This document shows positions 1 to 9,674 of a DNA stretch of 9,674 nt, piece after piece (position 1 is the stretch's first letter; every line of letters starts with the position of its first letter). Under the pieces are notes generated by a model. That model was given only the letters and a program-made list of their open reading frames with translations, was not told the origin of the DNA and searched no databases. The position numbers and the translations under genes are program-made. The stretch spans positions 3,846 through 13,519 of the forward strand of contig DHDL01000007.1 in assembly GCA_002399345.1 (NCBI GenBank), written 5' to 3'. The DNA is from Thermoanaerobacterales bacterium UBA4877 (lineage in GTDB: Bacteria > Bacillota > Thermoanaerobacteria > Thermoanaerobacterales > UBA4877).

Positions 1-327
1 GAATTTAATATATTTAGTACTTCTGCTACCGTTTCCTTGAGTTTTTCAAATTCTTGATTAATAAGCTGGGCTTTTTCTTCTTCGGGTCTTTTACTTTCAT
101 ATATGGAGTCTACCTTTTTGCGTGATTTGAATACCTGCAGTGGTAATAATGCATACATTTTTTGCTTTTCTAAGTCTGCTGGCGTATACTTCCAATACTG
201 CATCACAGGTACCTTATATAAATAAAGCGTTTAATAGATTTATGGTTACCTTTTTGGAGAGTTTAAATAGTAATTTCATTATTTGATCGAGTTTCAGTTT
301 CTCGGATGTGCTTTCTTTTTTATCCAT
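1..327 (-). pseudogene. Internally deleted Rpn/PD-(D/E)XK transposase-like gene (copy A), runs off left edge
   Basis: Read on the minus strand, an ATG at 327-325 with GGAG at 333-336 opens a frame starting MDKKESTSEKLKLDQIMKLL and ending at a TAA just after NALFI (about 213-215). In a neighbouring frame the sequence continues as VPVMQYWKYTPADLEKQKMY, then ALLPLQVFKSRKKVDSIYES, and runs past the left edge. From memory, the first part resembles the N-terminus and the second the C-terminal part of PD-(D/E)XK (Rpn-like) putative transposases of Clostridia. The whole nuclease core between them is missing and the junction is out of frame, so the gene is dead. A second copy with the same junction lies at 3316-3450. 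The family name is a pattern-level recognition only; the internal deletion is inferred from the expected family length. Confidence 0.5.
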
Positions 328-361
328 AGAATTCTCCATAAAAATATTTTCTATTATATCA
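193..361. repeat. 168-bp direct repeat, copy A
   Basis: The stretch from CAATACTGCATCACAGG to CTATTATATCA is repeated in the same orientation at 3316-3483 with only a few substitutions and one 1-nt indel (CCTTATA here, CCTATA there). It covers the start of the Rpn-like pseudogene, its ribosome binding site and the upstream region. The two copies flank the XRE/ImmA/PIN operon and the primase remnant. Confidence 0.85.
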
Positions 362-3315: not shown

Positions 3316-3450
3316 CAATACTGCATCACAGGTACCTATATAAATAAAGCGTTTAATAGATTTATGGCTACCTTTTTGGAGAGTTTAAATAGTAATTTCA
3401 TTATTTGATCGAGTTTCAGTTTCTCGGATGTGCTTTCTTTTTTAACCATA
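3316..3450 (-). pseudogene. Rpn/PD-(D/E)XK transposase-like gene fragment (copy B)
   Basis: This minus-strand fragment starts at an ATG near 3450 and reads the same KLKLDQIMKLLFKLSKK segment as copy A. It stops at TAG after NALFI, then shows VPVMQY in a shifted frame before the sequence turns into the Y1 element. It shares copy A's internal deletion, so the deletion predates the duplication. One T fewer at the junction puts a different stop codon there. It cannot encode a working nuclease. Confidence 0.5.
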
Positions 3451-3483
3451 GTATTCTCCATAAAAATATTATCTATTATATCA
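3316..3483. repeat. 168-bp direct repeat, copy B
   Basis: This is the second copy of 193-361, same orientation, about 3.1 kb away. It contains the start of the same internally deleted Rpn-like gene on the minus strand (from the position matching the copy A start, about 3450, down to about 3316). The start codon is changed: CAT in copy A becomes a position within TTAACCATA here, which still offers ATG. The match stops sharply at 3316, where Y1-element sequence begins. Confidence 0.85.
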
Positions 3484-3602
3484 CATATACCAAGTACAAT
3501 AAAAGCTTGAAGTGATTAAAACAAATATCGCTCAATACAGCTTAAAAGCAAAACAGTAGAACCGTCCCTATGTGTTCTTTTTTTACTTCACTATAAAAAT
3601 AT
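3484..3602. other. Intergenic stretch with one REP-like motif
   Basis: No gene is seen on either strand. The only structured element is GAACCGTCCCTATGTGTTC at 3559-3577, followed by seven T's, which can form a short GAAC/GTTC hairpin. It resembles the motif at 3000-3017 and is likely another trace of a Y1/REP-type element. Confidence 0.45.
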
Positions 3603-3626
3603 CGTCAGCTTATATGGAAGCTGACG
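3603..3626 (-). terminator. Hairpin terminator of the surface-protein gene
   Basis: CGTCAGCTT (3603-3611) and AAGCTGACG (3618-3626) form a perfect 9-bp stem with a 6-base loop. On the minus strand it is followed by ATATTTTTATAG. It lies 40 bases after the exon 3 stop codon (3667-3669), where a rho-independent terminator would be expected. Confidence 0.75.
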
Positions 3627-3666
3627 GAAAAATAAAAAGGGTGTAAATCGCTTGTACTATGCTTTA

Positions 3667-4410
3667 TTATATTTTCTGTACTAATCCTTCTTTAGCTATA
3701 TTTAAAAACCTTATTGCCTTATCTATTTCATCTTTAGTTACATTTTCTTTCTTATTTACTTCCTTAGCAGCATTTAATGCATCCTCAAAAAAATCCCAAG
3801 TTTCTATAGTATAATCGTCTTTTTTTATATCTACTGCATTATTTATTGCTGATATTAAGTCAGTCTTATCTACTGGCGGATAAAATTTAATTTCGTCACC
3901 AGTACCTATTACTTCTTTTCCGTCTTCATTTTTGTTAGCCTTTACAATAACTTTTACACCTTTATCCACTATTGCTGTTATAGGTTTTGATGTTATTATC
4001 GTAACTGTTTTATTAATAGCTACCGGATAAATAAGATAAGCATGATCGGATACATTTAGCGTTGCATTTTCTGCATCTAAAGTTAGACACCCAACTGTGA
4101 CATTCTTGCCAATGTTCAATTTACCTCCTTTTGTTTTAAAGACCAAACTATTACCAGTCGTAAGCTCATTCCAAGTATTTTTAGAGACCTTATTAATTGT
4201 TATAGTTCCAGTTACTATTGAGCGATTATTCACTGTAGCGTCCGGTGCATTTACAGTTAAATCACCATAGGTGGTCAGACCTGATGGCAGGTTTAAATCA
4301 TTTGAAGCAGTATAATTAATTGTCACATTTCCTATAACCATACCCTCTTTGATGTTAACTTTTTTATCAATATCATTTATCCCAGCTTTTAAGGTATACT
4401 CTTTTCTACC
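3667..4410 (-). CDS. Surface-layer-type protein, exon 3 (last alternative C-terminal module)
   Basis: This 247-codon segment ends at TAA 3669-3667. Its frame is open without a start codon to 4410, where intron 2 begins. The first residues are GRKEYTLKAGINDIDKKVNI. The ATG at 4341 lies inside the frame and has no ribosome binding site, so this is an exon and not a separate gene. The first 150 residues consist of short β-strand repeats with N/D/G turns (VIGNVTINYTASNDLN, LTTYGDLTVNAPDATV, LNIGKNVTVGCLTLDA), typical of β-helix or adhesin-like surface proteins. The last 65 residues (DKTDLISAINNAVDI to NIAKEGLVQKI) form a helical unit resembling FIVAR-type modules of cell-wall proteins. Joined after exon 2 or exon 1, it keeps frame. 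It is expected outside the cell on the wall; its ligand is unknown. Confidence 0.85.
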   Translation of the reverse strand, partial: GRKEYTLKAGINDIDKKVNIKEGMVIGNVTINYTASNDLNLPSGLTTYGDLTVNAPDATVNNRSIVTGTITINKVSKNTWNELTTGNSLVFKTKGGKLNIGKNVTVGCLTLDAENATLNVSDHAYLIYPVAINKTVTIITSKPITAIVDKGVKVIVKANKNEDGKEVIGTGDEIKFYPPVDKTDLISAINNAVDIKKDDYTIETWDFFEDALNAAKEVNKKENVTKDEIDKAIRFLNIAKEGLVQKI

Positions 4411-5424
4411 ATTCCTTACCTATCCTTGCGGATTTCGGCAGGTCTACACCGTACGTGCGGCTTTCACCGCATACGGCGTTCCATCGATAATTAATTACCG
4501 ACTAGGTTCCTTCGCTCCTTCTTGTTTTATCCTCTCCGTATGTTACCACACAGATACAAGCGGCAAGATATCCACGCTACTATGAACCTGCTGAGCCCGT
4601 ATATTTCTCATTATCCTGTCAGACTCAAAATATACAGCATCAAACGTTCCATTTTACCTATCCCTTTTATCAGATGATAGATGAAAGTGATAAATGATAG
4701 ATTGACATCATTCAACTCTCATTTTTTATCTGATTTTTCTGATTACCTTAGATATCCACATAAGTGCTTACTTCGCTTAGGTTTAATAGCCAATTATTCC
4801 TAAGCCCACAAGGTATTTCATCCTTATAGATTTCTACCAAGCTGAAGGCTTATGCATTTTAACAGTAGAAATTATATTTATAAGCCCCATCATCATGGAT
4901 TAGCATTTGTTTATCTTAGCAATCTTTTAAGGAGTCCCGCAGTTACTCAGAGGATAGATGATAGAGAATAGAGGATAAATTCAAATTCCTCAAAACCTCC
5001 AACTCCAAACTCTTACTCATTAATGAAAGTTCATCTGATGCCCAACCCAATAATTATGTTTTTTTATCTCTTTTTTTATCATCATGCAAATACTAACAAC
5101 CTTATGTTATTTAACTAACAGAGGAAAGAGGATAGATTTCTCTACTTTCACCTATCAACCATCATCTGGTTTCTTACGTCCTTACCTGGCTTCACAGAGC
5201 AAAACCTGACAGAGCTTTGTTCTGTGCAGGGGGATCAGACTCAAGACAGCCGGCTATTTGTCTTGGGCAGAGATTACACCTGCCAAATCGGTAAAACAGT
5301 TAGAAAACATATCTTTCATCACAAAATAGGAGGGAACTTAATTATGTCCCCTCCTAATCTTGCAAACTGTATTCAGTTTTCCGTTCTTTTCGCCGTTACC
5401 GGCTTATAGAACACCGTTTCGCAC
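4411..5424 (-). ncRNA. Group II intron 2 (no internal ORF)
   Basis: This 1014-nt intron on the minus strand starts GTGCG at 5424-5420 and ends AAGGAAT at 4411. Domain V is at 4479-4446: a 34-nt hairpin with a CGC catalytic triad, a 7-bp lower stem, a 2-nt CG bulge and a GAAA tetraloop. Domain VI (about 4444-4414) pairs CCTGCC with GGT-A-AGG, leaving a bulged branch-point A at 4417, seven bases from the 3' end, and caps AUCC/GGAU with GCAA. The candidate EBS1 is UUCAGC at 4846-4841. It is closely similar along its length to intron 1 but lacks that intron's four-helix protein gene; only its start codons remain near 4706-4712. No reverse transcriptase is present, so it needs host or trans factors to move. 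Plus-strand ORFs here are chance. Confidence 0.93.
4446..4479 (-). ncRNA. Domain V of group II intron 2
   Basis: This is a 34-nt catalytic hairpin: GCGGT-GAAA-GCCGC upper stem, two-base bulge CG, and a lower 7-bp stem holding the triad CGC in place of the more common AGC. It is identical in sequence to the domain V of intron 1. Confidence 0.93.
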
Positions 5425-5438
5425 TTTTGTTATTCAGC
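5425..5438 (-). promoter_or_regulatory. Shifted 5' splice site and stop codon before intron 2
   Basis: Exon 2 ends GCTGAA, then TAACAAAA, then GTGCG. Cutting after GCTGAA (between 5433 and 5432), 8 nt upstream of GTGCG, removes the stop TAA (5432-5430). GCTGAA (5438-5433) is perfectly complementary to TTCAGC at 4846-4841 in the intron, so it is the likely IBS1. The joined product reads NSAE-GRKEY in frame. Confidence 0.85.
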
Positions 5439-6401
5439 AGAGTTGTAATTAACTGTATAATAGCTTCCATCATACATACTGCCTGATGCATTACCAGCTA
5501 TATCTCTTACAACTAAATAGAATTCTATATCCTCAAATGGCCTGTCTTCACCAAGTTTATCCGCAAATTGATTACTATCGCCGAAATTAATTTTCCAAGT
5601 GCCATCATCATAAGTTACTACAACTCCTGCAGTATTAAATTTCGACTGTTTACCACCATAGGGGTCGTTTTTATCGGCATAGACACTGAACTCCGGTATT
5701 TGATTTTCTTCTGGAGTAGAAGAATCATTACCATAACTGTGATCTATCTCTAATTCTTTAAGTTGTACATTATCAGAAGCCTTTACAGTTAAGACATAGT
5801 TGTCATCACTATCTTTAGTAAAAGTTGTATCCGACCCATCTATATCTGGATCCTCTAGATCAGTCGTAACAAACCAAAATTGTTTTTTATATTCATCTTC
5901 TATTTTCTTAGTAAACAAACCTTCGATACCTTTACCTGCTACCCAATCACCATTAGATGTCTTTCCATCTATCCAGATAGCTGGTAAATCTTCATCTGCA
6001 GCAAATGTCAAAGTTCCGTTTACTGTTAGTTTTGGCTCTTTTGTTACACCTTCACCCTGTGATACTTCAATTCCACCAAACTCATTACCGCTTACATCAA
6101 CAGTTCCTTTCAAGGTTACGTCTGAGCCATTTACTAAAATAGCAGCGTCTCCACCAGCAATGGATAAATTCTTGATTGAACCCTTTGTCTTGTAAAATTG
6201 GAGAACATAGTTGCTACTCCATCCGTCTTGGTCATCCTTAAATGTTAATTTGTAACCATTGCCATTAATATTTTTTTCTGTTGATGCTTGAAGTTTATCT
6301 GTTACTTCGATGTCATTCATTATATTGATTGTTTTAATATCAGGATCTTCAATAGCTTCCTTTAATTTCTCAAAAGTAGTAACATCTGCTACTGTTTCGT
6401 C
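5430..6401 (-). CDS. Surface-layer-type protein, exon 2 (alternative C-terminal module)
   Basis: The frame is open from 6401 (first codons read DETVADVTTFEKLKEAIED) to TAA at 5432-5430. Without the stop, the exon from 6401 to the shifted splice site is 969 nt, exactly 323 codons. The ATG at 6320 is internal and has no ribosome binding site. Residues about 1-140 look like a right-handed β-helix start (FEKLKEAIEDPDIKTINI, INGNGYKLTF, ILVNGSDVTLKGTVDVSG), the pattern of pectate-lyase-like surface modules. Residues about 170-323 are an Ig-like, aspartate-rich β-domain with VKASDNVQLKELEI and FYLVVRDIAGNASGS, as in cell-wall Ig/bacterial adhesion repeats. If intron 1 is spliced and intron 2 is not, the protein ends here (YNSAE); if both are spliced it continues into exon 3. 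Location is outside the cell; ligand unknown. Confidence 0.87.
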   Translation of the reverse strand, partial: DETVADVTTFEKLKEAIEDPDIKTINIMNDIEVTDKLQASTEKNINGNGYKLTFKDDQDGWSSNYVLQFYKTKGSIKNLSIAGGDAAILVNGSDVTLKGTVDVSGNEFGGIEVSQGEGVTKEPKLTVNGTLTFAADEDLPAIWIDGKTSNGDWVAGKGIEGLFTKKIEDEYKKQFWFVTTDLEDPDIDGSDTTFTKDSDDNYVLTVKASDNVQLKELEIDHSYGNDSSTPEENQIPEFSVYADKNDPYGGKQSKFNTAGVVVTYDDGTWKINFGDSNQFADKLGEDRPFEDIEFYLVVRDIAGNASGSMYDGSYYTVNYNSAE

Positions 6402-6436
6402 ATTCCTTACCTATCCTTGCGGATTTCGGCAGGTCT

Positions 6437-6470
6437 ACACCGTACGTGCGGCTTTCACCGCATACGGCGT
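6437..6470 (-). ncRNA. Domain V of group II intron 1
   Basis: This is a 34-nt hairpin with CGC triad, CG bulge and GAAA tetraloop, identical to the domain V at 4446-4479. It is the most diagnostic group II intron element in the region. Confidence 0.93.
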
Positions 6471-6661
6471 TCCATCGATAATTAATTACCGACTAGGTTC
6501 CTTCGCTCCTTCTTGTTTTATCCTCTCCGTATGTTACCACACGGATTCAAACGGCAAGATATCCATGCTACTATGAACCTGCTGAGCCCGTATATTTCTC
6601 ATTGTCCTGTCAGACTCAAAATATACAGCATCAAACGTTCCATTTTACCTATCCCATTTAT

Positions 6662-6695
6662 CAGATGATAGATGATAGAGGAAAGATGATAGATT
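6662..6695. repeat. GATGATAGA simple repeat in intron 1
   Basis: Imperfect repeats of GATGATAGA-like units (GATGATAGATGATAGAGG and on) lie just before the domain IV insert. Intron 2 has a similar, diverged stretch at about 4672-4703, so slippage-prone sequence marks the edge of the insert or deletion in both introns. Confidence 0.5.
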
Positions 6696-6722
6696 AAAAG
6701 CATAAAAAACAAAAGCATAAAT

Positions 6723-6782
6723 AACAAATCCCTAAATAACAAATCCCTAAATAACAAATCCCTAAATAACGAATCAAAACCT
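6723..6782. repeat. 15-bp tandem repeat inside intron 1
   Basis: Three perfect copies of AACAAATCCCTAAAT (6723-6737, 6738-6752, 6753-6767) are followed by a decayed fourth (AACGAATCAAAACCT). Related A-rich units continue to about 6845. They fill the space between the four-helix gene stop and the domain V side of the intron. They probably arose by replication slippage. Confidence 0.85.
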
Positions 6783-6859
6783 TTAATAAAAATCAAAGAC
6801 CTAGATAGCAAACTAAAACCTAGACAACAAACCAAAGCCTTAGATAAAAGATCGAAAAA

Positions 6860-7216
6860 CTATAGAGATTTTCGAGTGGTCTTTACCGTTGAGACCAATA
6901 TCTTTATCAGTTCTCGACAATCTTCTATCATTGAGCTATACATCTTATCATCTATATAATCTGTGGATTGTAATAGATCCAGCCAATATTCCGTTTCTGA
7001 AGCTTCTTCTAACGCTACATTCATTTTAGATAAATAATCTCTTTTACTTTGTGCCTGTAGCGCTTCCTTGATATTCGCTCCTATGCTTGTACCGGATCTT
7101 AATATTTGTTTAGACAAAACATATTCCTTTTTATCCTTACACAAATATTGATACAGCCTTACAATCCGTATTGAAAACTTAAATGCTTTCTCATATCCTA
7201 TACTTTTAGGCATCAT
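6860..7216 (-). CDS. Four-helix-bundle protein (S23 / 23S rRNA IVS-protein and Avd-like), encoded inside intron 1
   Basis: This 118-residue protein has the hallmark SGTSIGANIKEALQAQSKRDY (core about residues 42-61) and four predicted helices: about 10-27, 34-61, 63-87 and 91-114. The family includes proteins encoded in 23S rRNA intervening sequences and Avd, the accessory protein of diversity-generating retroelements. Avd is a basic, ring-forming, RNA-binding helper of reverse transcriptase. The protein has the usual family length and many Lys/Arg residues. It starts at tandem ATGs (7216-7211) behind a weak GAGAG, on the intron's own strand, in the domain IV position where other introns encode their maturase. 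A role in intron RNA folding or splicing is an inference; a hitch-hiking gene is the alternative. The reading frame is intact, which suggests selection or recent arrival. Confidence 0.88.
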   Translation of the reverse strand: MMPKSIGYEKAFKFSIRIVRLYQYLCKDKKEYVLSKQILRSGTSIGANIKEALQAQSKRDYLSKMNVALEEASETEYWLDLLQSTDYIDDKMYSSMIEDCRELIKILVSTVKTTRKSL

Positions 7217-7920
7217 TAGCTCTCATTTTCATCTGATATTTTTGATTGCCTTAGATATCCACATAAGTGCTTACTTCGCTTAGGTTTAATAGCCAATTAT
7301 TCCTAAGCCTACAAGGTATCTCATCCTTATAGATTTCTACCAAGCTGAAGGCTTATGCATTTTAACAGTAGAAATTATATTTATAAACCCCATCGTCATG
7401 GATTAGCATTTGTTTATCTTAGCAATCTTTTAAGAAGTCCCGCAGTTACTCAGAGGATAGATGATAGAGAATAGAGGATAGATTCAAATTCCTCAAAACC
7501 TCCAACTCCAAGCTCTTTCTCTTTAATAAAAGTTCATCTGATGCCCAACCCAATAATTATGTTTTTTTTATCTCTTTTTTATCATCATGCAAATACTAAC
7601 AACCTTATGTTATTTAACTAACAGAGGAAAGAGGATAGATTTCTCTACTTTCACCTATCAACCATCATCTGGTTTCTTACGTCCTTACCTGGCTTCACAG
7701 AGCAAAATCTGACAGAACCTTGCTCTATGCAGGGGGATCAGACTCAAGACATACGGCTATTTGTCTTGGGCAAAAATCACATTTGCCAAATTGGTAAAAT
7801 AGTTAAGGGACTTTAACCACAGTATTTAGGCAAAAGGGGAAATTTAATCCCCTTCTGCTTATTAGTGTTTAGTCTCTCGTTCCTTTCGCCATTACCGGCT
7901 TATAGAACACCGTTTCGCAC

Positions 7921-7935
7921 TTTTGTTATTCAGCT
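7921..7935 (-). promoter_or_regulatory. Shifted 5' splice site and stop codon before intron 1
   Basis: Exon 1 ends AGCTGAA, then TAACAAAA, then GTGCG. Cutting between 7929 and 7928 removes the TAA (7928-7926). AGCTGAA (7935-7929) pairs over 7 bases with TTCAGCT in the intron (EBS1 core 7349-7344). The joined product reads IAE-DETVAD in frame. The 14-base tail GCTGAATAACAAAA is identical to that of exon 2, while the sequence before it differs. Confidence 0.85.
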
Positions 7936-9674
7936 ATCTCTGCAATAGTTGTTACTATAGCTTTTACGTCACCTTTGGCTAAGGTTACAGTAACTTTAGC
8001 CTCTGCCGTCGCATTATCAACACTTACATTTTTTACACTTACTTCATCACCTACTACAGTTTTAACTGCATTTTCTACTGTAGCAGCGTTGAAATCTGCT
8101 ACTTTTAAAGTTGTACCCTTAAGTTTTTTAACAGCCTCGTTAACTACCTCTTGGTCTAATGCTTTTTCTTTATCTATGTCTTTAGCAACATCTGCTAACT
8201 TTTCTTCCTTAGCTTTTAACCTTTCTTCACTACTTGGCTTACGATTATTAGTCTCATCTAAATCAGCTAAAGCATCCTTTTCCGCCGGAGTTAACGCACC
8301 AAAATGTTTTCTAGCAGTCTCTATTGCTGCTTTGTCATCGGCATATGTTTCATTTTTCATTTTGTCCGTATGAGGTAAATTCCCTATCTCAGTATAAACA
8401 GCCTGAGCTGCAGCTTTTATTTCCTTTGCAGTAACTCCCAGTGTTATTACATTATCTTTGATAGTTACCTTGTCGCCTACATTTAGATTCTTTTTAATCT
8501 GGGCAGGACCCATGGCAATAGTCTTGCCATCTTTTACTAGACGTGTAGTGGCATCTATCTTGTAAACATTTCCGTCTACCTCTATAGCTTTTCCATTATT
8601 ACTAAAACCTGTCACAATACCTTTCTCATTAACTGCTTCGGTATCTTTGTCTACCTTAACTACTAGCTGTGCAAGCTTACCAACTGATTTAATCTGGACA
8701 TAGTCGCCCGTATTAATATCACTGGCTTTTGCATCGTCAATCTGCTTCATACCATCTGTAGCATCAAAATATAAAGTCTTACTGTTAACCTTATATGTGA
8801 CACCATCTATATCCAATGAGCCTGAACCCTTGGCTGTTACCTCCTCAGCAGAGTCCATAGTTATATCATTGACATTAGTCACTTCATTGTCCTTGTTAAG
8901 CTTGAAGTTTATTACATCGCCCTTTGAAACATTCTCATCAAGCTTGTAATCTGCTGTCTTTCCATCCCAAACAGCTATCTCAGCGGCGCGATCACCATCA
9001 CTATCGATAAATGTGTTCAAAACAACACCGAGATTATTAGTTGTGCCAGCAATCGAATCAAAGCCTTCTGTGATTACTAAGAACTTAACATCATCCTTAG
9101 CGTCATAAACAACTGCTGCTTTAACATCATCTACACTCTTACCCTTTATGTCATCCCACTTAGCAGTATCAACATCACCATCTGTAATACCAACTATAGG
9201 TGTTGATGAACTCATGTAATAGTAAATATCCTTATCATCTGTCTTAATCCAATCATGATCTTCATCAAACTTAGCTATATTGTCTAACGGAGTTATTTCA
9301 AGATCCTCATAATCCTTCTCGTTTTTCAAAGTATTTTCTTCTATTGTACCAAATACACGCAGATCTGTTATAACATTATCCTTATCCAGATCATACTTAG
9401 CTACTACATAATTATCACCTGTAGTACCTGTTAAAGTTTTAAGTTCTGATATCTTTATTTCATTATCTTCACCATTGTAAATCTTACCATCGAAGTCATA
9501 GGATACAGTCTTATCCTGTGCAGGATCATAAAGCTTTATCCTATCACCATAAACATCGACTAGTGTTACCAGGCCATAATTTGCAGCCCTTACATTAACC
9601 TCTGTGGTAAGGTGTCTTACATTACCATTAATGTCAAGCAGAGCTGTTACATCCTCGCCTGCTGCATCAACTAT
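7926..9674 (-). CDS. Surface-layer-type protein, exon 1 (N-terminal side cut by right window edge)
   Basis: The frame is open from the right edge to TAA at 7928-7926: 582 visible residues and no start inside, since the TTG at 9329 is an ordinary internal leucine codon. The true N-terminus, where a signal peptide and S-layer-homology or other wall-binding repeats would be, is off the window. The visible part is acidic and Lys/Asp-rich. It holds repeated small β-modules of the kind GDYVQIKSVGKLAQLVVKVD and GNVYKIDATTRLVKDGKTI with VGDKVTIKDN (about residues 270-420). A helical stretch KEIKAAAQAVYTEI to EAVKKLKG (about 420-530) and a final β/α unit ending VTTIAEIAE follow. This fits a secreted surface-layer or cell-wall protein of Clostridia. 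Read without splicing, this exon gives the shortest isoform; splicing adds exon 2 and/or exon 3. Confidence 0.87.
   Translation of the reverse strand: MVDAAGEDVTALLDINGNVRHLTTEVNVRAANYGLVTLVDVYGDRIKLYDPAQDKTVSYDFDGKIYNGEDNEIKISELKTLTGTTGDNYVVAKYDLDKDNVITDLRVFGTIEENTLKNEKDYEDLEITPLDNIAKFDEDHDWIKTDDKDIYYYMSSSTPIVGITDGDVDTAKWDDIKGKSVDDVKAAVVYDAKDDVKFLVITEGFDSIAGTTNNLGVVLNTFIDSDGDRAAEIAVWDGKTADYKLDENVSKGDVINFKLNKDNEVTNVNDITMDSAEEVTAKGSGSLDIDGVTYKVNSKTLYFDATDGMKQIDDAKASDINTGDYVQIKSVGKLAQLVVKVDKDTEAVNEKGIVTGFSNNGKAIEVDGNVYKIDATTRLVKDGKTIAMGPAQIKKNLNVGDKVTIKDNVITLGVTAKEIKAAAQAVYTEIGNLPHTDKMKNETYADDKAAIETARKHFGALTPAEKDALADLDETNNRKPSSEERLKAKEEKLADVAKDIDKEKALDQEVVNEAVKKLKGTTLKVADFNAATVENAVKTVVGDEVSVKNVSVDNATAEAKVTVTLAKGDVKAIVTTIAEIAE

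Follow-up and report, generated by a model that had tools for sequence, protein, structure and literature searches.

Two C.te.I1-type group II introns in series interrupt a likely surface-layer gene and may allow alternative splicing in a Thermoanaerobacterales bacterium

A 9,674-nucleotide (nt) stretch of the genome of Thermoanaerobacterales bacterium UBA4877 (contig DHDL01000007.1, positions 3,846 to 13,519), referred to here as the window, carries three open segments on its minus strand (9674-7929, 6401-5433 and 4410-3667) that are separated by two complete group II introns. It can be proposed with good confidence that these are introns of the type of C.te.I1, an intron of Clostridium tetani, that they interrupt one likely surface-layer (S-layer) gene, and that splicing at a shifted 5' site would remove the stop codons that close the first two segments, with several protein isoforms as the likely outcome. 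This interpretation is well supported by comparison with related loci, and the splicing events and isoforms are predictions from the DNA sequence. All coordinates are window positions, and the gene, its introns and its exons all lie on the minus strand, as follows.

7929-9674, minus strand: exon 1, C-terminal part of a likely S-layer protein, 582 codons; open at the window edge, with the N-terminus beyond it
7921-7928, minus strand: spacer after exon 1, TAACAAAA, the 8 nt between the shifted splice site and GTGCG, beginning with an in-frame stop
6402-7928, minus strand: intron 1, 1527 nt, complete, C.te.I1-type, boundaries predicted
6437-6472, minus strand: domain V (D5) of intron 1; domain VI (D6) continues to 6402 and has a bulged A
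5433-6401, minus strand: exon 2, 969 nt, 323 codons, phase 0 at both ends, with a Pectate_lyase_5 adhesin-like domain; predicted cassette exon
5425-5432, minus strand: spacer after exon 2, TAACAAAA, 8 nt, containing an in-frame stop
4411-5432, minus strand: intron 2, 1022 nt, complete, C.te.I1-type, without the gene found in intron 1
4446-4481, minus strand: D5 of intron 2; D6 continues to 4411 and has a bulged A
3667-4410, minus strand: exon 3, 247 codons (4410-3670) plus TAA (3669-3667), with a FIVAR domain

Exons 1 and 2 share the same end, GCTGAA followed by TAACAAAAGTGCG, and the stop, a TAA at +1 in both cases, is the first codon of the 8-nt spacer. All three segments are in phase 0 at the shifted splice sites. 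Reading in frame from the junction, an ATG, GTG or TTG is first met at codon 28 of exon 2 and at codon 24 of exon 3, and four codons upstream of both junctions that frame contains a TAG. In both exons, homology extends ahead of these start codons: the Pectate_lyase_5 match starts with residue 5 in exon 2, and the alignment of exon 3 with the cassette exon of the related locus L090 (41% identity) starts at residue 1. Exons 2 and 3 thus seem unable to start translation easily by themselves. The preliminary description of this DNA had reported three open segments separated by two RNAs with group II ends, stop codons at the intron boundaries of the first two segments, and two later segments devoid of start codons; the coordinates and D5/D6 motifs, the TAA opening both spacers and the positions of the first possible starts agree with it on each point.

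The presence of two complete introns in series, also claimed there, was confirmed by D5/D6 matches above the gathering score and by a domain I core in each copy. The Rfam model RF00029 (D5/D6, gathering score 40) matches intron 1 with 42.7 bits, ending at 6402, and intron 2 with 47.5 bits, ending at 4389, and the D5 of both introns fits a D5 profile of our own. GTGCG begins at 7920 in intron 1 and at 5424 in intron 2. When aligned, the two introns agree at 922 of 1014 positions (90.9%), including the whole of the last 141 nt with D5 and D6 (6542-6402 and 4551-4411). By eye, the arms of one domain I hairpin differ between the two copies yet remain complementary. The window holds two D5/D6, each within a full intron, and no extra bare D5/D6 motif. 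The Rfam models of domains I to IV gave no match in the window; RF02004 matches five relatives (L089, L090, L095, L098 and L099). Neither intron encodes a reverse transcriptase, since the longest open reading frame (ORF) within them is a 118-amino-acid gene of the 23S rRNA intervening sequence protein (IVP) type in intron 1. A maturase domain was found in 11 of the 21 genomes in which a related core was detected (see below) and in none of the other 10, genome completeness not being stated, and because of these 10 a maturase is probably not required for this intron type. A bulged-A geometry, present in both window D6 helices and in 17 of the 36 D6 examined overall (six were unreadable by script), suggests that branching is possible for the window introns.

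The position of the 5' splice site was examined through the complementarity between exon-binding site 1 (EBS1) and intron-binding site 1 (IBS1), which are located as follows.

7929-7934, minus strand: IBS1 of exon 1, GCTGAA, exact complement of EBS1 at 7349-7344
7344-7349, minus strand: EBS1 of intron 1, TTCAGC, in an enlarged domain I loop
5433-5438, minus strand: IBS1 of exon 2, GCTGAA, exact complement of EBS1 at 4846-4841
4841-4846, minus strand: EBS1 of intron 2, TTCAGC, complement of the exon-end GCTGAA

In both window introns, EBS1 is complementary to the exon end at six of six positions 8 nt upstream of GUGCG, and there is no exact complementarity at offset 0; it is this complementarity that leads to the prediction that splicing would remove the stops. 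The same was seen across the 22 introns of the shifted type whose 5' end could be read, namely the two window introns and 20 relatives. EBS1 complements the exon end at six of six positions upstream of GUGCG in 20 of the 22 (18 at -8, one at -10 and one at -11, two of them including one G-U pair), and a full match at the canonical site occurs in none. A site 8 nt upstream of GTGCG, as proposed in the preliminary description, is thus borne out comparatively. The first 21 introns display 10 distinct Watson-Crick EBS1-IBS1 combinations, and when EBS1 was reassigned among loci in 10,000 shuffles, the mean was 3.7 matches and the maximum 10, compared with 19 observed. For L091, L100 and L101, the IBS1 was found by reading with EBS1 known, and the offset scan then gave -10, -11 and -8, respectively. 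In L112, where the motif is altered, the offset of -8 was counted by alignment to the following AAACG; L111 is truncated at its 5' end and was excluded from the IBS1 count. In all 21 introns, the spacer holds an in-frame stop as its first, second or third codon, as does the spacer of L112, so that an unspliced message would end the protein at or beside the splice site. Upstream, frame 0 is long in 20 of the 21, the exception being L091 with 61 codons at a contig end.

Six conventional introns served as controls. They belong to four genomes (L113 to L116) that match the same core model weakly (36-67 bits); the interrupted gene is recA in L114, as tested, and was read as recA by eye in L113, L115 and L116. 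Here the EBS1 complement adjoins GTGCG: it is exact at offset 0 in five of the six introns and at offset 8 in none, the sixth (L116) matching at offset 0 with one G-U, and no stop-bearing spacer was seen. The control scan covered the whole core, with no fixed EBS1 position. As in the window, two full introns stand in series in one gene in L113 and L114.

The relatives were found with R1, a covariance model that covers the part of domain I in which EBS1 lies. It was built from seven seeds, the two window introns and five relatives obtained by DNA similarity, and the window cores are located as follows.

7237-7444, minus strand: R1 core of domain I in intron 1, EBS1-bearing, 220.9 bits, R1 seed
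4734-4941, minus strand: R1 core of domain I in intron 2, EBS1-bearing, 221.5 bits, R1 seed

Searches of whole genomes gave matches in 5 of 218, 4 of 391, 2 of 247, 12 of 249 and 7 of 398 genomes, in overlapping sets and under strict filters by which weak matches were lost. Strong matches (at least 90 bits) occur in 21 genomes besides the window, with one core each, five of them being seeds. The window introns, at about 221 bits, are among the highest-scoring seeds, and the best non-seed relative reaches 213.1 bits. The core structure is also supported by covariation, with 40 of 53 pairs changed on both sides over 21 sequences and 96.6% of cells paired; shuffled data gave a mean of 25.7, and none of 500 shuffles reached 40. 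Searches of viral, phage and plasmid collections yielded no full relative of the intron, plasmid and phage matches being confined to the domain V stretch (4-6% of the query among the matches listed).

A second line of evidence comes from the reading frames behind D5/D6. Of the 39 junctions compared, two belong to the window and one each to L001 and L036, two loci in which no core was found. Frame 0 stays open for 80 codons or more after 36 of the 39, and frames 1 and 2 after none. The three exceptions are the last junction of L033 and that of L095, both cut by the sequence end, and the first of L096, where a stop follows after five codons. The D5 motifs were located with the profile mentioned above, built from nine D5, RF00029 being below threshold in L034, L036, L037, L038, L039 and L101. 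Because automatic 3'-site patterns missed or misplaced some junctions, seven of the 39 tails were set manually, four by eye with the frames already visible (one in L032, two in L033 and one in L091) and three, of L111 and L112, as typed strings. This comparative frame test backs the single joined frame claimed in the preliminary description. Taken together, the shifted-site complementarity in 20 of 22 introns and an open frame 0 behind 36 of 39 junctions, when the other frames are open behind none, make a chance origin of the pattern very unlikely.

Nine of the 21 relatives carry at least two D5/D6 behind one core: six in L033, three in L091 and L096, and two in L032, L034, L089, L098, L100 and L112. 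In L033, five of the six D5/D6 behind the single core have long in-frame exons, and the sixth is cut by the end of the locus; the modules include transglutaminase, MucBP and M6 peptidase, with FIVAR below cut-off. L096 (3270-10971) has its core at 3513-3718 and three D5/D6 from 10041 on, more than 6 kb behind the core, the intervening genes (4047-9804) resembling an efflux operon by eye; the intron may be broken, or it may be a candidate case of trans-splicing in nature. In L037 (8400-1, minus strand), a core with exact EBS1-IBS1 complementarity is followed by 8.4 kb in which no D5 was detected, and in L036 (5072-5437) a D5/D6 with a 94-codon in-frame exon resembling that of L035 lies in a 17-kb locus in which no core was found. 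L090, L091, L095 and L111 end at contig ends.

The best known system of this kind is C.te.I1 of C. tetani, described by McNeil, Simon and Zimmerly (PMC3919590). According to their account, C.te.I1 lies in a surface-layer gene, splices in vivo and in vitro, cuts 8 nt upstream of GUGCG because its EBS1 pairs with IBS1 there, as was tested by disrupting and then restoring the match, and self-splices by hydrolysis; loss of EBS2 is a further mark of the type. The window introns resemble it in their likely surface-layer-type host gene, the lack of a reverse transcriptase, the predicted -8 site set by EBS1-IBS1, the enlarged EBS1 loop, the stop in the spacer and the in-frame joining of C-terminal modules, the last being predicted in the window. 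The comparison with C. tetani made in the preliminary description is supported for the published features (shift, spacer stop and absence of a reverse transcriptase); it had left open an independent or a related origin, and the occurrence of the same intron type in at least 22 loci points to a related one. There are also differences. C. tetani has one full intron and three bare D5/D6, so that its 3' exons are mutually exclusive ends, a plan shared by the nine relatives with several D5/D6 behind one core, whereas the window has two full introns in series and an internal, potentially skippable exon 2. The window D6 keeps a bulged A, whereas C.te.I1 is hydrolytic, and an IVP-type gene lies in domain I of window intron 1. 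In Bacillus B.a.I2 (PMC3919590, PMC4424553), alternative splicing likewise decides the extension of an upstream ORF, but there the choice lies between 3' sites 4 nt apart.

The host gene likely encodes a surface-layer protein. Among 7995 candidates scored, the only match to exon 1 is P0001, a 969-amino-acid protein with SLH domains (52% identity over window residues 1-370), whose residue 496 aligns with residue 1 of exon 1, which would place any SLH part of exon 1 beyond the window edge. The alignment stops at window residue 370, leaving the C-terminal 212 residues of exon 1 unmatched in P0001. A DUF5666 domain was found in exon 1, and no SLH or other S-layer anchoring domain in the window exons, the window beginning inside the ORF. 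Domain families were searched in the 5' exons of 20 relatives and in 30 of the 39 3' exons, 28 of which are from relatives. An S-layer domain is present in six of the 20 5' exons (SLH in L089, L090, L093, L096 and L112, SbsC in L035) and Ig-like domains in several others; no domain match was obtained for L033, L034, L092, L098, L099, L101, L102 and the 61-amino-acid piece of L091. The surface-layer assignment of the preliminary description is thus supported indirectly, by the SLH domains of P0001 and the SLH or SbsC domains of six relatives, though not by any SLH domain in the window itself. The 28 3' exons of relatives encode transglutaminase, M6 peptidase, MucBP, FIVAR, BspA-type leucine-rich repeats, Ig-like domains, InlB-type repeats and metallophosphoesterase, 10 of them being without a family match; according to these predicted domains, the 3' modules are adhesin-like or enzymatic.

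On this basis, several products can be predicted. Unspliced RNA would give isoform 1; splicing of intron 1 alone would give isoform 1-2, terminating at the stop of the second spacer; and splicing of both introns would give isoform 1-2-3. If domains I to IV of intron 1 acted together with D5/D6 from intron 2, the cassette exon would be skipped and isoform 1-3 would result. Exon 2 would be an internal, in-frame cassette because each D5/D6 belongs to a full intron, and intron 1 may be able to use either 3' site because the D5/D6 of both introns are identical. With each exon, the same anchored base would gain a further adhesin-like module at its C-terminus. The four-helix-bundle (IVP-type) protein of intron 1 may bind the intron RNA or help to fold it in place of a maturase, which is the least certain step. 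In its fullest form, this reading would have the cassette exon included or skipped, with retention ending the protein, to give four surface proteins; it would make the window one case of a broad, previously unrecognised system (22 loci, perhaps with trans-splicing at some, and as many as six 3' modules per locus) and the IVP-type protein a splicing factor. We put forward this combination tentatively, as possible rather than probable.

Several points weigh against this reading. The exon 1-exon 3 junction is a prediction only, and the search revealed no relative with two full introns in its surface gene. Two of the 22 introns miss the pairing (L093, 4 of 6, and L090, 5 of 6), one of the first 21 also has a six-of-six match at -17, taken as chance, and with G-U pairs accepted throughout the core, a match at offset 8 also appears in three of the six control introns. 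The R1 seeds include both window introns and five relatives, and the A2 alignment used for covariation was fitted to the model, which favours the structure of the model. The Rfam alignment of D6 in intron 2 reaches 4389, 22 nt past the end at 4411, which was set from identity with intron 1 and from the reading frame. The S-layer assignment is based on one homologue, the N-terminus of exon 1 being outside the window, and likeness to C.te.I1 was judged from the published description, not from the C. tetani sequence. Finally, 75-95% of the C. tetani transcript remains unspliced (PMC3919590), so that spliced isoforms may be minor in the window as well.

Among the alternatives, the strongest is that the two introns are spliced constitutively one after the other, without any skipping of exon 2, and that graded retention gives only isoforms 1, 1-2 and 1-2-3; we regard it as a serious possibility, somewhat short of an even chance. 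Each intron is complete with its own D5/D6, use of the nearest D5/D6 in cis would be kinetically likely, and conventional introns do occur in series in one gene, as in L114 (recA) and, by eye, L113. However, the identical last 141 nt give intron 1 no means of distinguishing the two D5/D6 by sequence there; in C. tetani one core reaches four D5/D6 motifs (PMC3919590), and the relatives with two or more D5/D6 behind one core (9 of 21) also speak for a choice of 3' sites.

It is also conceivable, but unlikely, that the introns result from a recent unequal duplication or an assembly chimera, so that the cassette exon would have no history of use. The 90.9% identity of the introns, their identical 141-nt 3' ends and the lack of a detected relative with two full introns in its surface gene speak for this. 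Against it, the arms of a domain I hairpin differ while staying complementary, the IVP gene is found only in intron 1, and the exon 2 ORF (P0002, 296 residues from the first ATG) is present in three contigs that reach 108 kb in length, the window's own perhaps among them. That the introns have decayed and no longer splice, exon 1 being a complete gene and the later segments remnants or internally started, is quite improbable: remnants do exist, as in L037 and as the D1-D4 remnants reported beside S-layer genes of several Firmicutes (McNeil et al., PMC3919590), but both window introns score 221 bits with R1, above every non-seed, their D5 fits the profile, and the later segments, open for 323 and 247 codons, lack an in-frame start close to the junction and show homology that extends ahead of the earliest start codon.

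Intron 1 carries a gene-bearing insertion, the parts of which are as follows.

6659-7238, minus strand: intron 1 insertion in a domain I junction loop; a 10-bp stem, TATCAGATGA/TCATCTGATA, is predicted to close it, with pair probabilities of at least 0.92
6860-7216, minus strand: intron-borne gene, 118 amino acids, intact, four-helix-bundle protein of the 23S rRNA IVP type

The four-helix-bundle gene was absent from the preliminary description. Its product matches PF05635 (6.8e-30, 103.9 bits against a cut-off of 33.8) and TIGR02436 (2.5e-33, 114.6 bits against a cut-off of 24). The insertion is absent from five aligned relatives, and intron 2 lacks the gene. In those five relatives, insertions occur mainly at the place of domain IV, just before D5; the window introns have almost no domain IV loop but two inserts in domain I, the second of which, in intron 1, bears the IVP gene. 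A related half intron of an uncultured Clostridiaceae (L001) holds a shortened but open copy of the gene. Over 76 shared codons, the two copies differ at 20, 11 and 43 sites in codon positions 1, 2 and 3, and 37 codons have changed synonymously against 18 that encode another amino acid. Selection at the protein level has left its mark on the first block of 47 codons, where 26 changes are synonymous and 5 are replacements; the second block of 29 codons (11 and 13) does not show it by itself.

Homologues of the IVP gene were found in 77 of 218 genomes. Since such genes are so common elsewhere, the gene may be regarded as a captured insert, perhaps one that has gained a role as an RNA-binding helper, the role being a guess. 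An obligate partnership with the intron was rejected, homologues being common, R1 matching only one of 30 IVP loci scanned, L048, and that weakly (20.2 bits, E 0.004), and the five aligned relatives all lacking an IVP insert. By eye, TCTATC-type pyrimidine repeats flank a further domain I insert shared by both introns (7664-7445 and 5161-4942, minus strand) and one side of the IVP insert. The idea that such repeats mark a mobile IVP element was not supported, at least two such words in about 3 kb being present at 5 of the 30 IVP loci. In rRNA intervening sequences (PMC11270868), an IVP-family gene also lies inside a structured-RNA insert, but in the window the host RNA is a group II intron of a protein gene and not ribosomal RNA.

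In the literature searched, which included few subscription journals, eukaryote-like alternative splicing in bacteria is proven at one locus, and no later report of C.te.I1-type introns or of IVP in group II introns was found. Judged by sequence matches, the intron family is larger than that literature reports. What is new here is that the shifted-site design recurs in 21 other genomes, where the splice-site complementarity covaries, and that an internal, skippable exon is predicted between two full introns. As 21 other genomes hold cores of the same type, bacterial alternative splicing may be commoner than the single proven case suggests. If the proposed reading is true, bacteria would exchange modules of their surface proteins by means of a ribozyme-based system, and the old question of whether alternative splicing is older than the spliceosome could be put to the test in many species.

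Some further observations were made in the course of this work. A match to RAGATH-23 at 7770-7866 in intron 1 was disregarded, its score being 27.3 bits against a threshold of 92.6. In L102, which belongs to a genome of the same order as genome G362, RF01405 (STnc490, an Hfq-binding RNA) unexpectedly matched above threshold at 8530-8645. Lastly, a 147-nt direct repeat with 97% identity (window 215-361 and 3337-3483) brackets an XRE/peptidase M78 gene pair and a small ORF at 394-978.

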